A stretch of 35,233 nucleotides of DNA, taken from Bacteroidota bacterium. Lineage in GTDB: Bacteria > Bacteroidota > Bacteroidia > Bacteroidales > FEN-979. The stretch is taken from positions 1 to 35,233 of the forward strand of contig JAPLDO010000208.1 of NCBI GenBank assembly GCA_026391715.1, read 5' to 3'. Positions within the stretch are counted from its first letter, which is position 1. The number at the start of each line of letters is the position of its first letter. Below are positions 1 to 33,396 of this stretch, piece by piece. Below the pieces are notes generated by a model. The model made no database searches. It had not been told where the DNA came from and saw nothing but the letters and a program-made list of their open reading frames with translations. The translations under genes were made by a program, and so were the position numbers.

Positions 1-62
1 AATTACAGGGAACGCAAGTGAAATCGGAAAATAAAGCTGATTAAGCCGGCTTTCTGCTTTGT

Positions 63-188
63 TCAAAACCATTTCATCCTCTTTACCAGAATTGCAACCC
101 CAACCAGAATCGCCACAACAACGATTCCAACAATCCATCCAACCATCCCCGTCCGTGTCGCCTCCCGGTCTTTTTTCAAAGCCTCCGA
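63..188 (-). pseudogene. C-terminal fragment with one membrane helix
   Basis: A minus-strand reading frame of 41 residues ends at a TGA (complement of 63-65) and is blocked upstream by a TAA at 189-191, with no start codon. It reads as a charged stretch (EALKKDREATRTG) followed by a hydrophobic helix (GWIVGIVVVAILVGVAILV) and a basic end (KRMKWF). That is the layout of the C-terminal membrane anchor of a longer protein. The family is not recognisable. It stops exactly where the plus-strand FISUMP fragment begins, so it is probably the leftover of a rearrangement, or an assembly joint. Confidence 0.4.
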
Positions 189-189
189 T

Positions 190-449
190 TATGGTACAAC
201 GTTGACAACACCGGCGGCTGGACCAACTGGAACGGACCCTGGAACTCAGGGCTGAAACTGCACGCTGCCGGGTATCTCAACTACAGCGGTGGTTCGCTGG
301 ACTACAGAGGCTCACTCGGCTACTACTGGAGTAGTACGCAGAACAGCTCGACCTTCGGCTGGTACCTGTTCTTCTACAGTGGCTACAGCTTCATGTACTA
401 CTACCTCAACAAGGCGCACGGCTTTTCCCTACGCTGTTTGAGAGACTAG
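190..449 (+). pseudogene. Orphan C-terminus of a FISUMP / C-type-lectin-fold protein, DGR variable-region-like
   Basis: The frame ends at TAG 447-449 and reads as the last ~86 residues of a FISUMP (Fibrobacter succinogenes major paralogous) domain: W-rich start, GYYWSSTQ, and the family ending GFSLRCLRD. The N-terminal part of the domain, a start codon and a signal peptide are absent. The frame is open further left to 45, but that part is antisense to the anchor fragment and shows no FISUMP similarity. From about 270 on, positions that are Asn in related diversified lectins are here Y, F, S, G, L, D or H, and most of these codons end in C (tac, ttc, agc, ggc, ctc, cac). That is what adenine-directed mutagenesis of AAC codons would leave. 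Function as a binding surface is inferred. It could also be an ordinary FISUMP remnant. Confidence 0.65.
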
Positions 450-487
450 ATAACTTTGATTTATTTGGAACTTTGACACTTGAGCCC

Positions 488-682
488 ACTCCGAAAAGTC
501 TATGAGAAAGGTTTGCAGTCAATTTACCCACCCCCAACCCCTCCCTTGAAAAGGGAGGGGAGAAGCGCTACAAAGCACAACAGCAAGATATACAGTGTAT
601 TGCCAAAGCAGAGGTACTCCCCTCCCTACGGGTAGGGAGGGGCTGGGGGTGGGTAGATTCACCTTAAACTACTTTTCGGAGT
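488..682. mobile_element. MITE-like element with 12-bp terminal inverted repeats and nested G-rich hairpin
   Basis: ACTCCGAAAAGT at 488-499 is matched by its exact reverse complement at 671-682. Inside lies a second inverted pair: a C-rich arm near 527-550 (ACCCACCCCCAACCCCTCCC) and a G-rich arm near 633-656. Shorter local hairpins (CCCTCCC..GGGAGGGG) sit beside each arm. No coding potential is seen. A further copy of the 12-mer occurs at 28957-28968. The layout suggests a small non-autonomous element, but no transposase or target duplication was identified. Confidence 0.5.
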
Positions 683-3956: not shown

Positions 3957-6599
3957 TTATTGCGGATTTTCTATCGTTAAAGTTCCTGTCACAGTCAGAA
4001 ATTTAAGCGAGGCAACCGTTAACGACGCAGCCGACTGGATCAGAACATCGTGACAGATTGCAGGATTATCCGAAGAAACAACCGGCATGTTGATAGCTCC
4101 CGAAGGGATTATCACATTGTTTGACGCCACAGGAACCCCGTTTACAGTTGCATGATTCAGCATTTGCCAGTTTGCCGGGTTATGCCAGTCATGGCTCTCC
4201 TCGCCAATCCATACCCATGTCATATCTGCCGGTCCGAACAAAAAATTTCCTTTACCGCTGAAAGTAACAACGGTTAAATTATGCAAAGAGTCGAAAGTTG
4301 CCGACGATATAGCTCCCTGAAGAAGTTGTAAAACAACCTCTGAAAACATCTTAACAACTCCAAAATCAGAAACATATCCGCTATAAAGATCGGAGCTGGC
4401 GCGCATCCACGCTACATCCAGTTTTTTATTTGTTTCTATGATGGTCTGGGTTCCGGCTTTGACGCTGTCGCCGTAATGAATAAAAGCGGAAGAAAATTGT
4501 CCGTCGGAAGTTTCAGAGTAAAAATTGATCTTTCCGTTGCCTTTAACCGGTTTATTCATGCCAGAAGAATCGGCAGAAATGATATTCAAAATTCCGGTTT
4601 GCGAACAGAACATGAGATCTTTGAAGTTGTCGGACTGAATCCTTACCGAGGTAATTGAGCTACTTTGACTCGCGGATAAAACCTGCGGCGGGGTAGTTGT
4701 GTATGGAAACAGGGTGGAAAGAAACAGAGTGTTTGCAACAGCGTTTTTTTGCGCTAACATTTTCGAATATTGCCTGAAACCTCCTGCAATTACCATACTG
4801 TCCAGTTGATATGAATAACTTAAACCAACGCCCGGCGTAGTGACTCGCGCAAGTAAAGAAACCGAATTTCTTGAATAAACTCCCTGCGAAGCGGTAAAAT
4901 CAGGAACAAAGGCGCCAGTTGAGGCGGAAGGCGGACTTCCGAATAATCCGTTACCATGTAATTGAAACGTGTAATTTTTGGAAGATGAAGAAGTTACAAA
5001 ATCGGTAAGAAGAAAATACTTATTCCGCACAAATAGGTTTTTACGGATTATATCGGCGCTCTGGTAAGTAACCCTCACTTCGCCGTAATCAAGCAAAGGT
5101 GTGTCAAAACAATGTTCGATATAAGCAGTATTGGTTGATGTACTTACCGACTCCCCTGTGGGGGGTAATGGTCCGGCGCCATTTACAAGAATCAGGCTGT
5201 GGTCAATAGCCTTATTTTCGAGTTCGGCAAGGGAAGCGCCGGGATATCCTGGGTCAACGGCAAGGAGTTCGTTATATGCCGCGAGCGAAAAACCGGTGGC
5301 GTCTCCCTGGTGATGAGCCTTGGCGCCGGTAAGCGCAATTCCATGTTTGCCAATAAAGTGCATATAAACGGCAGATGGTTGCCATGACGAGCGAAAAACC
5401 AGACTACCGGCGGCGGGCAGGGACTGGAAAAGACTATCCTGAATTGCGCCATGCGCCACATTAGTTGCAATATATTGGGTTCTTACAAAAGGATCGTCAG
5501 GATTAAAACCCGGATTGAGCCAGTTAAACTGCGGTTTCCCCGAAAGCGCCATGATGACTGTTCCAAATCCCAGATAGCTGTCGTGAATTGCCGGAAAACT
5601 TCCATTGGGCATACGAATCTTGTTCATCCAGTCATACAGCCGGTCGTATCGCACATCGGACCAAGGATTCCTGATATTCCGCGCGGTAGAATTGAAAGTA
5701 GCGGAATAATAACCATCAGGCAGGAAATTGCCCATTGAACGGATAAAGGGAAAAGCATTTTCGAAGGCATATTTGAAATAGTTCGGTCCTTCGGCATATC
5801 CCGCGAGGGTATCGGGTTCTGAAACGCGGGGATAGACGCCGTTTTCCATCCAAAGGGTGTTATCAAGGTTATATAAACCGGCATTTATCCAGTTCTGGGG
5901 CTGATAATTCACATTGGCATTGGAATAATCATTGAAAACAACGGCGGCGAGTCCAAGCGCCGAAGCCGTCATTATGCTGTGGTTATTAAACTGGTAAGTA
6001 AAAAACTTCAGGTTCAGGAAAGTATATGAAGCCATTGACTTTTGGTAAAGGTTGGCGGCGAATGTCAATAGTTTTGTTTTTGAAGCGTCGAGAAGAGTTT
6101 GAGCCACGCCTGCGCCTTTCAGCAAATCATAAGCGACGAGGTATGAAATTAGTTCCTTCGACCTGTGTTGCCAGGGGTTATAAAATGTCCAGAAAGTTCC
6201 TACATCTACATCGGTATTTATCTGTTCGAGCAGCCACAGCGCTCGGTTCAGTAATGTGTCGCGTTCGATTTGAGTCAACTGCACAATGGTATTGGCGTAA
6301 AACTTTCGGTCCATCAGATAGATAAATGCCACTTCCCGCGCAATCATCGAACGGACATATCTTTCGGTGATTGTTGAGTTTCCGGCAGGGATTGCCGAAT
6401 TTGCATTAAGCCAGATACTGCCGTATAAAAAAAGATGATCCGGGTCGGCAAGTGTCGCTCTTACAACCGGAACCGCAGCGCTGTCGAGCAATGTCCGCGG
6501 AAAACCGGGGGCAAATCCGGGAGGGTTCCAGCTTCCCTGGGAAAAAAACTGAAACGGAAGTAAAACCAGCGCGAGAAAAAAAGTAAGATGCTTTTTCAT
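3957..6599 (-). CDS. Secreted heparinase II/III-like polysaccharide lyase
   Basis: 880 residues. A signal peptide (MKKHLTFFLALVLLPFQFFSQ) is followed by a helical region (about 60-390) with YAEGPNYFKYA, the kind of (alpha/alpha) toroid motif found in heparinase and alginate lyases. A beta-sandwich region (about 400-780) includes HHQGDATGFSLAAYNELLAVDPG, corresponding to the H-x-D-x-x-S..DPG motif of heparinase II/III. The C-terminal ~85 residues (WIGEESHDWHNPANW...VIIPSG) are a small beta module often found at the end of Bacteroidota secreted proteins. A clear T9SS type A domain is not visible. The substrate would be an acidic polysaccharide but cannot be named. It is upstream of, and probably in one operon with, the transglycosylase. 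Confidence 0.7.
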   Translation of the reverse strand: MKKHLTFFLALVLLPFQFFSQGSWNPPGFAPGFPRTLLDSAAVPVVRATLADPDHLFLYGSIWLNANSAIPAGNSTITERYVRSMIAREVAFIYLMDRKFYANTIVQLTQIERDTLLNRALWLLEQINTDVDVGTFWTFYNPWQHRSKELISYLVAYDLLKGAGVAQTLLDASKTKLLTFAANLYQKSMASYTFLNLKFFTYQFNNHSIMTASALGLAAVVFNDYSNANVNYQPQNWINAGLYNLDNTLWMENGVYPRVSEPDTLAGYAEGPNYFKYAFENAFPFIRSMGNFLPDGYYSATFNSTARNIRNPWSDVRYDRLYDWMNKIRMPNGSFPAIHDSYLGFGTVIMALSGKPQFNWLNPGFNPDDPFVRTQYIATNVAHGAIQDSLFQSLPAAGSLVFRSSWQPSAVYMHFIGKHGIALTGAKAHHQGDATGFSLAAYNELLAVDPGYPGASLAELENKAIDHSLILVNGAGPLPPTGESVSTSTNTAYIEHCFDTPLLDYGEVRVTYQSADIIRKNLFVRNKYFLLTDFVTSSSSKNYTFQLHGNGLFGSPPSASTGAFVPDFTASQGVYSRNSVSLLARVTTPGVGLSYSYQLDSMVIAGGFRQYSKMLAQKNAVANTLFLSTLFPYTTTPPQVLSASQSSSITSVRIQSDNFKDLMFCSQTGILNIISADSSGMNKPVKGNGKINFYSETSDGQFSSAFIHYGDSVKAGTQTIIETNKKLDVAWMRASSDLYSGYVSDFGVVKMFSEVVLQLLQGAISSATFDSLHNLTVVTFSGKGNFLFGPADMTWVWIGEESHDWHNPANWQMLNHATVNGVPVASNNVIIPSGAINMPVVSSDNPAICHDVLIQSAASLTVASLKFLTVTGTLTIENPQ

Positions 6600-31866: not shown

Positions 31867-31943
31867 GAAATATGAAATATGAAATTTGAAATTTGAAACC
31901 TGAAATCTGAAATCTGAAATCTGAAATCTGAAATTTGAAATTT
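31867..31943. repeat. Heptamer array GAAATCT/GAAATTT, eleven units
   Basis: Eleven 7-bp units of GAAANNT type end 8 bp before the TTG start of the next gene. Confidence 0.9.
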
Positions 31944-31950
31944 GATTACA

Positions 31951-33396
31951 TTGAAACGACCCTTATCTAACATATTACGTCTGTTTATCATCGCGGTTTC
32001 GCTGATGATGACTATGGCTTCCGCCATGGCTCAGACGAATATTGTTAATGCCGGTCAGCAAAGTAATCTCGGTATTGAGCCAATCCCTGGCGCTACTTAT
32101 CTTTGGGAACTTTTTACAGATAATATTACAATCAATTTTGCCACTGTGCCGGGAAATTGTCCGATAACCGATGCGAACTTCGTCGGAGTCAATTCAACCC
32201 CAACAGTAAGCGTAATGTGGACAACGCCCGGCGTCTATTATTTCCGGGTGAAAGTAATGGCTTCCGGAGGGTGCCAGAATCTGAAAATAGGCAGGATGGA
32301 TGTTATCGGCGATTTGCCAACAGCCACTTTTGTTGATACTTTGCCAATCTGCCTCGGTCAAACCACTAATCTGAAAATACTGCTCACAGGGTTGCCTCCC
32401 TGGAGTTTAACATATACCGACGGAAATATCCCCGTTACCCTGTCAGGAATTTTAGCGAGTCCGTTGTGGATTCCGGTAAGCCCTGCCGCAACAACAAGTT
32501 ATTGGATTACAACCGTGAACGATGCGCGCGGAAGCCCGAATAACGCCCTGGTGGGTCCATCGGTGATTACCGTTAACCCAAAACCAAATGTATTTTTTAT
32601 TCCATGCTTCGACATTATCACTTCGGTGGAGGCGAAACCCTTCAAACTTCGGGGTGGATTGCCTCTGAATGGCAGCTATTCCGGCGGCGCGTGGATTAAT
32701 TTCCCATCTTCCGGCATGTTTAATCCTGCGACGGCTCCTATCGGTTCGAGTCCGGTTAAATATAAATACACAAATTATTTCGGATGCAGCGACAGCGCGG
32801 TTAGCAATGTGCAAAACCATGCCGCGCCGGCATTTTCATGTGGAGGAGACTGGACAGACATCCGCGACAGCAAAACCTATCCAACTATTCTGATTGGCTC
32901 GCAATGCTGGCTTGCCGCTAACCTCAACCACGGTCAGCAAATCCAGTCGCCGCAACCGCAGGCAGACAACTGTGTGAACGAAAAATATTGCTATAACAAC
33001 GACCCGGCAAATTGTGCCACTCTGGGCGGTTTGTATCAGTGGGACGAACTGATGAGATACGATGACGCCCAGGCTTCACAGGGTATCTGTCCTCCCGGAT
33101 GGCATGTCCCCACTGAACCTGAATGGGCGACGTTACTGAATTTCTACGGAGGAAACGCCTTTGCAGGCAAACCGTTGCAGGAAACTTCCGCTGTCGGATT
33201 CCATGCCTTCGCAGGCGGCGTGCTTTACCAGAACAACATCTGGAGTTTCAAAGGTATCGCTACCCTTTTCTGGACATCCACAGCAACCAGCCCGGTAAGA
33301 GTAATTTCCCACGGGATGAATATCTATGACGTCTCAGTTTCATATTACGAATCGCTGCGAACCAACGCTTTCCCGGCGAGGTGTTTAAGGGATTAG
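31951..33396 (+). CDS. Secreted FISUMP-domain protein with Ig-like N-terminal part
   Basis: From TTG 31951 the protein starts (M)KRPLSNILRLFIIAVSLMMTMASAMAQ, a signal peptide. An alternative TTG lies at 31942, and no ATG precedes the signal. Residues ~30-290 form two or three Ig-like domains (TYLWELFTDN, VSVMWTTPGVYYFRV, ITVNPKPNVFF). Residues ~295-481 are the FISUMP domain (DWTDIRDSKTYPTILIGSQCWLAANL, NNDPANCATLGGLYQWDELMRY, CPPGWHVPTEPEWATLL), ending NAFPARCLRD. Unlike the fragment at 190-449 it lacks the C-ending codon bias of a diversified region. It acts at the cell surface; the ligand is unknown. Confidence 0.82.
   Translation: MKRPLSNILRLFIIAVSLMMTMASAMAQTNIVNAGQQSNLGIEPIPGATYLWELFTDNITINFATVPGNCPITDANFVGVNSTPTVSVMWTTPGVYYFRVKVMASGGCQNLKIGRMDVIGDLPTATFVDTLPICLGQTTNLKILLTGLPPWSLTYTDGNIPVTLSGILASPLWIPVSPAATTSYWITTVNDARGSPNNALVGPSVITVNPKPNVFFIPCFDIITSVEAKPFKLRGGLPLNGSYSGGAWINFPSSGMFNPATAPIGSSPVKYKYTNYFGCSDSAVSNVQNHAAPAFSCGGDWTDIRDSKTYPTILIGSQCWLAANLNHGQQIQSPQPQADNCVNEKYCYNNDPANCATLGGLYQWDELMRYDDAQASQGICPPGWHVPTEPEWATLLNFYGGNAFAGKPLQETSAVGFHAFAGGVLYQNNIWSFKGIATLFWTSTATSPVRVISHGMNIYDVSVSYYESLRTNAFPARCLRD

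Follow-up and report, generated by a model that had tools for sequence, protein, structure and literature searches.

A FISUMP-type gene tail at a contig end, very probably the variable region of a DGR acting in trans on dispersed targets

The diversity-generating retroelement (DGR) of Bordetella phage BPP-1 is phage-borne and lies adjacent to its target. A more dispersed arrangement is described for Treponema denticola in the available portion of PMC4891356, with one core locus, 2 to 7 scattered variable region (VR) genes per isolate, some of them truncated, and one isolate, SP32, with a leftover VR fitting another template type. Among DGRs of the human microbiome, the part of PMC4159848 accessible to us names Fib_succ_major, DUF1566 and FGE-sulfatase targets and shows a pair with adenine-only changes, while the excerpted text of PMC10907252 reports a single genome with nine DGR loci and 15 targets. 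Remote targets on short contigs are missed by the survey method of PMC8144416, as its authors acknowledge in the passages available. Within the literature searched, represented in part by such excerpts, we found no template-less cohort of VRs in a Bacteroidales genome, an absence that is unproven.

Here we describe one end of a 35,233-nucleotide stretch of DNA (the window, analysed as a whole), which constitutes contig C232 of a 5.02-Mb assembly in 256 contigs that is 99% complete. A reading made from the nucleotide sequence alone had proposed a DGR variable region near its start, and this proposal is supported by a DGR with a related template in the same genome and by sibling sequences that differ mainly at adenines. 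We consider it very probable that positions 264-446 are a variable region diversified in trans by a DGR. The features discussed are located in Table 1.

Table 1. Positions of the gene tail and its surroundings in the window, and of the C169 DGR loci
Feature	Location	Strand	Remarks
Unrelated DNA abutting the gene tail	window 62..190	.	similarity to C111 and C165
DGR target gene 3' end, FISUMP domain, 5' part missing	window 192..446	+	85 codons; alignment with 14 C-terminal domains
Variable region (VR), homologous to C169 TR1	window 264..446	+	sibling differences concentrated at template-adenine columns
TAC TAC TAC CTC AAC, one extra codon	window 396..410	+	3-nt gap in all other rows, two alignments
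TAG stop closing the target tail	window 447..449	+	
Second RT	C169 185-1420	-	
Second template, TR2	C169 1485-1630	-	beside second RT
RT	C169 2331-3689	-	RVT_1
Avd gene	C169 3628-4044	-	Pfam bAvd, NCBIfam, PHROG
Template TR1	C169 about 4205-4392	-	spells AAGYLNNSDGSLNNRGSNGNYWSSTQNDATNGWNLNFNSGNSNMNNNNKAYGFSARCVRD
Target frame, 745 codons, VR at end	C169 5145-7379	-	

The gene tail and its relatives

The tail reads through GYLNYSGGSLDYRGSLGYYWSST, the peptide that the sequence-only reading had singled out, and the surplus of codons ending in C on which that reading drew is evident both in the last 35 codons (23) and in all 85 (48), compared with 25% third-position C in the six large open reading frames of the window (binomial p 4e-7 and 7e-10, respectively). 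The interval first assigned to it, 190-449, does hold a target tail, although its internal limits required correction: target-gene homology sets in at about 191, and the template-homologous part occupies only about 264-446. The intact FISUMP gene (31942-33396), said there to lack the codon pattern, is absent among the gene-tail matches listed. Also borne out is the observation that neither a reverse transcriptase (RT) nor a template occurs in the window, as all five RVT_1 matches in the genome and the template are on other contigs and the sole window match in the search for a template was the VR itself. The open frame of the tail spans 45-446 and has no ATG, GTG or TTG before 393, so the copy as assembled is a gene tail. 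Its similarity to the FISUMP domain falls under the curated cut-offs of both Pfam (Fib_succ_major, PF09603; E 3e-6) and NCBIfam (FISUMP; E 4e-4).

Window positions 190-500 have at least 24 matches in their own genome, the query itself counted, a figure that is a possible lower bound with 40 of the 168 first-look candidates scored. The best others among the matches listed are on C196 (88%), C90, C237, C180, C187, C251 and C169 (74%), and all seven are the C-terminal ends of longer target-like frames with the exception of C187, where the sibling VR gene tail (C187:25416-25698:+) has a disrupted reading frame. When 15 C-terminal domains are aligned, the C196 protein and the window fragment share 81% identity, and by eye the siblings resemble genes for secreted FISUMP proteins, with signal-like N-termini. 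One further frame, C218:8490-11270:+, carries a VR-like domain within a long reading frame whose end resembles a HINT domain by eye. Matches to the gene tail were found in 19 of the 41 genomes searched, its own counted, and in 14 of the 18 relatives within the genus.

The lectin fold proposed for the target is not confirmed: the C-terminal domain of C196 as modelled by AlphaFold has a mean pLDDT of 37 (low), and a profile search of solved structures yielded no significant match (best E 0.036). At Rfam gathering scores no family was detected in the window or in the C196, C90 and C92 stretches examined, and one tRNA was detected in the C169 stretch examined. After the stop codon, C-rich and G-rich runs form an apparent inverted pair at window 520-660; by eye, similar runs also follow the C237 VR and lie close to the RTs of C169.

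DGR loci on other contigs

Four of the five RTs, two on C169 and one each on C149 and C225, match both RVT_1 over its cut-off and phrog_1423 and are accordingly RTs of the DGR kind; they also carry G(L/V)PIGNLTSQ, a motif that we take to be a mark of DGR RTs, and in NCBIfam they have only sub-cut-off matches, to other RT families. The best solved relative of the C169 RT is 8ub7 (listed as 'Reverse transcriptase'; E 5e-36, with the next at 2e-9), presumably the RT of the Bordetella phage BPP-1 DGR. A scan with the C169 RT named 14 loci, the best three of which, at 74-81% identity, come from metagenome-assembled genomes, two of them uncultured Bacteroidales. An accessory protein is likewise present at the C169 locus, where the Avd product scores 55 bits against Pfam bAvd (over the cut-off of 40) and 65.7 bits against NCBIfam Avd (E 4e-18, under the cut-off of 80) and matches the PHROG 'Avd protein of DGR'. 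The fifth RT, on C92 (2183-3196:+), looks like another kind and is perhaps CRISPR-associated; its NCBIfam matches are to retron-type RTs, under cut-off. Cas1-, Cas2- and Cmr-like frames were seen by eye in that stretch.

Templates and VRs that differ only at template adenines were found on C169, C149 and C225. In local alignments, which trim mismatched ends, TR1 differs from the neighbouring C169 VR at 20 of 56 adenines and none of 127 other bases (20/55 and 0/125 in fixed columns, which begin at the template start), the C149 template differs from its two VRs at 21/34 and 19/34 adenines and at 0/96 others each, and the C225 template differs from its VR at 17/31 adenines and 0/101 others. The C149 and C225 DGRs have another target domain, FGE-sulfatase-like by eye. 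The second C169 template, TR2, is accompanied by six dispersed VR-like copies, on C135, C252 (two), C214, C165 and C162; in a comparison by similarly end-trimmed alignments that leaves out the match on C136, these show adenine-bias p values from 1e-5 to 0.06 and 6-18 non-adenine changes each.

Sibling variable regions and a proposed template not seen in the assembly

The sequence-only reading had sketched an Asn-rich template and expected a near-identical copy, apart from adenines, beside a DGR RT. TR1 is close to the sketch and is indeed related and so placed, yet the expected identity outside adenines does not hold, as the window VR differs from TR1 at 21 of 55 adenines and also at 20 of 126 non-adenine sites (local alignment, ends trimmed), so TR1 was not its writer. 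Descent from TR1 followed by drift could be proposed on the grounds that no FISUMP-type template other than TR1 was encountered in the assembly and that the adenine columns of TR1 do differ more than the others. However, the window, C196, C90 and C237 VRs have 18 fixed differences from TR1 in common, 16 of them at non-adenine template bases, which separate drift would not give, and the C169 VR itself has 0/125 such changes. We therefore regard drift from TR1 as very unlikely, and the non-adenine mismatches together with the 16 shared differences rule out TR1 as the direct template.

Comparison of the window VR with its siblings is more telling. With adenine columns defined by TR1, standing in for the true template, the window differs from C196 at 19/55 adenine columns and 3/125 others (p 1e-8), from C237 at 23/55 and 4/125 (p 2e-10), from C90 at 21/55 and 8/125 (p 4e-7), and from C180, C187 and C251 at 24-31 of 55 adenine columns and 14-17 of 124-125 non-adenine columns. 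Variation among the window VR and its nearest siblings is thus concentrated at template adenines, with few non-adenine changes remaining; these are compatible with a VR because a non-adenine rate of 2.36% is given for one VR elsewhere in the available text of PMC6642488.

Older copies served as a control, with pairs drawn from four young VRs (window, C196, C90, C237) and six old paralogues; C180 and C251 entered the alignment but no pair, and C187, C218b, C108 and C85 formed no part of the comparison. The ratio of adenine to non-adenine differences is 5.4-13.9 in the six young pairs and 1.1-2.3 in the 15 old pairs. A few columns before the template start are also counted in this comparison, which gives 3/130 non-adenine differences for the C169 pair, 4/130 for window and C196, and 2/128 (with 20/57 adenines) for the G013 pair. 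The control is not free of bias: 8 of the 15 old pairs reach p < 0.05, so old copies, too, vary to some degree at template-adenine columns, which may reflect earlier rounds of diversification. This residual bias and the size of the family are what could be said for ordinary duplicated FISUMP paralogues, shaped by diversifying selection and gene conversion with no retrohoming. Conversion, however, homogenises all columns, whereas the four nearest VRs are 94-98% alike at non-adenine sites and differ at 35-53% of adenine columns, and the genome does contain DGR machinery, including a template from this family; we consider this account extremely improbable.

The strongest single result comes from the flanking sequence. 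Between window and C237, 19 of 72 positions differ upstream of the VR against 4 of 125 non-adenine positions within it (p 2e-6) and 23 of 55 adenines, and between C196 and C237 the corresponding counts are 110/385 over the long upstream part, 3/125 and 24/55 (C187, with its disrupted frame, is left out of this comparison). The upstream excess over VR non-adenine sites is not significant for the window against C196, C90, C180 or the C169 VR (p 0.09-0.37). The C237 results are explained by copying of a common template into diverged gene bodies, since gene conversion would even out adenine columns as well, and a shared template that we did not see, here called TR3, explains the sibling pattern better than gene conversion does.

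Under this shared-template reading, TR3 would be an Asn-rich sister of TR1. From its RNA a DGR RT would make cDNA carrying a random base wherever the template has an adenine, and this cDNA would take the place of the 3' ends of several scattered target genes, the window gene among them. The AAC codons of such a template would become NNC codons, making stops impossible. The window VR would in addition have gained one AAC unit by slippage: its extra codon falls where TR1 has an (AAC)4 tract, and we infer that the template perhaps slipped by that single unit; the accessible part of PMC12875486 mentions that AAC repeats can slip in multiples of three. T predominates at the changed adenine columns of the window VR (16 T, 4 G, 1 C), hence its many Tyr and Phe residues. 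This T share exceeds the one in a pool of four siblings (28 T, 50 other; Fisher p 0.001, post hoc).

TR3 was sought directly. Patterns of the fixed bases of the group, at up to 3 mismatches, occur at seven and six places in the own genome, all of them known VR places; the TR3 pattern was found in none of 18 other genomes of the genus at up to 2 mismatches, and viral contigs gave 0 exact matches. Near copies of TR1 do exist in other genomes (185/188 in G013, 182/188 in G001, 179/187 in G004 and 160/186 in G036). As sources of the window VR these were rejected on non-adenine mismatches of 18/125 (G013), 19/125 (G001), 19/124 (G004) and 23/122 (G036), and they hardly differ in fit from TR1, which has 20/126. 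For five of the seven VRs of the group the nearest contig end is no more than 273 bp away, so TR3 could have been lost in an assembly broken at repeats. Loss of the template is also possible in a biological sense, and we tentatively entertain, as a somewhat unlikely history, a template turnover in which an older TR3 seeded a cohort of scattered FISUMP genes in this species, four at the least and perhaps seven, and was then lost. If so, these VRs would be frozen orphans while TR1 continues elsewhere in the genome.

The missing gene body and comparison with known DGRs

The window copy has no 5' part and starts 189 bp from the contig end, and the absent gene body would reflect either an assembly break here or a 5'-truncated remnant, two explanations that we judge about evenly balanced. 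An assembly artefact, in which the VR is real, the 5' part of the gene sits on another contig and window 1-189 is a wrong join, has an even chance of being correct. It is favoured by the position of this copy and of most of the group VRs near contig ends and by C11 (4446 bp), which begins inside such a target gene, has the 5' part without a VR, and is 88% identical to C196 over 151 bases. The C11 and window halves are complementary but have no overlap that would prove them a pair. The DNA abutting the tail also speaks against a wrong join. Window 62-189 is 84% identical to C111:23448-23575:- and window 133-190 is 84% identical to C165:38013-38070:+, and the C111 similarity ends at the same motif, a sharp junction that fits a real module boundary. 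A tiny membrane peptide is possible on the other strand of the 62-189 repeat in both the window and C111 copies.

Only slightly short of an even chance, in our estimate, is a true cast-off copy, a gene tail that a rearrangement severed and attached to other DNA and that is no longer expressed. The sharp junction, a frame that is open only from 45 with no usual start before 393, and the truncated targets of Treponema denticola (PMC4891356, available portion) are consistent with such an event, whereas the contig-end position and a VR that is itself uninterrupted argue against it.

With either origin of the truncation, the preferred reading of the tail as a VR diversified in trans has several implications. 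Raw sequence can suffice to recognise a VR that is distant from any RT or template, and a comparison of non-adenine with adenine columns across paralogues can support a remote one. The genome is a rich natural case, with four DGR-type RTs, three adenine-only template systems and a VR group with a missing template, and it makes template loss and in-trans retrohoming testable. Such DGR systems have been described before, and what deserves following here is the missing template and the scattered siblings.

With the BPP-1 DGR the genome shares an RT, Avd, TR, VR and adenine mutagenesis, but most VRs of the family here are on contigs other than that of the RT. The Treponema denticola DGR, as described in the available portion of PMC4891356, is similar in its remote and partly truncated targets and in the leftover VR of isolate SP32, which fits another template type; in contrast, the present targets are of the FISUMP type in a Bacteroidales relative, several DGR loci occur in one genome, and no template was found for the orphan group. 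The known genome with many DGR loci and candidate remote targets is alike in those respects, although its targets are tied to conflict-system genes, whereas the siblings here resemble, by eye, genes for secreted FISUMP proteins. The human-microbiome DGRs, insofar as the accessible part of PMC4159848 describes them, correspond in the kinds of target domain and in adenine-only changes, while the targets here are dispersed paralogues within one genome.
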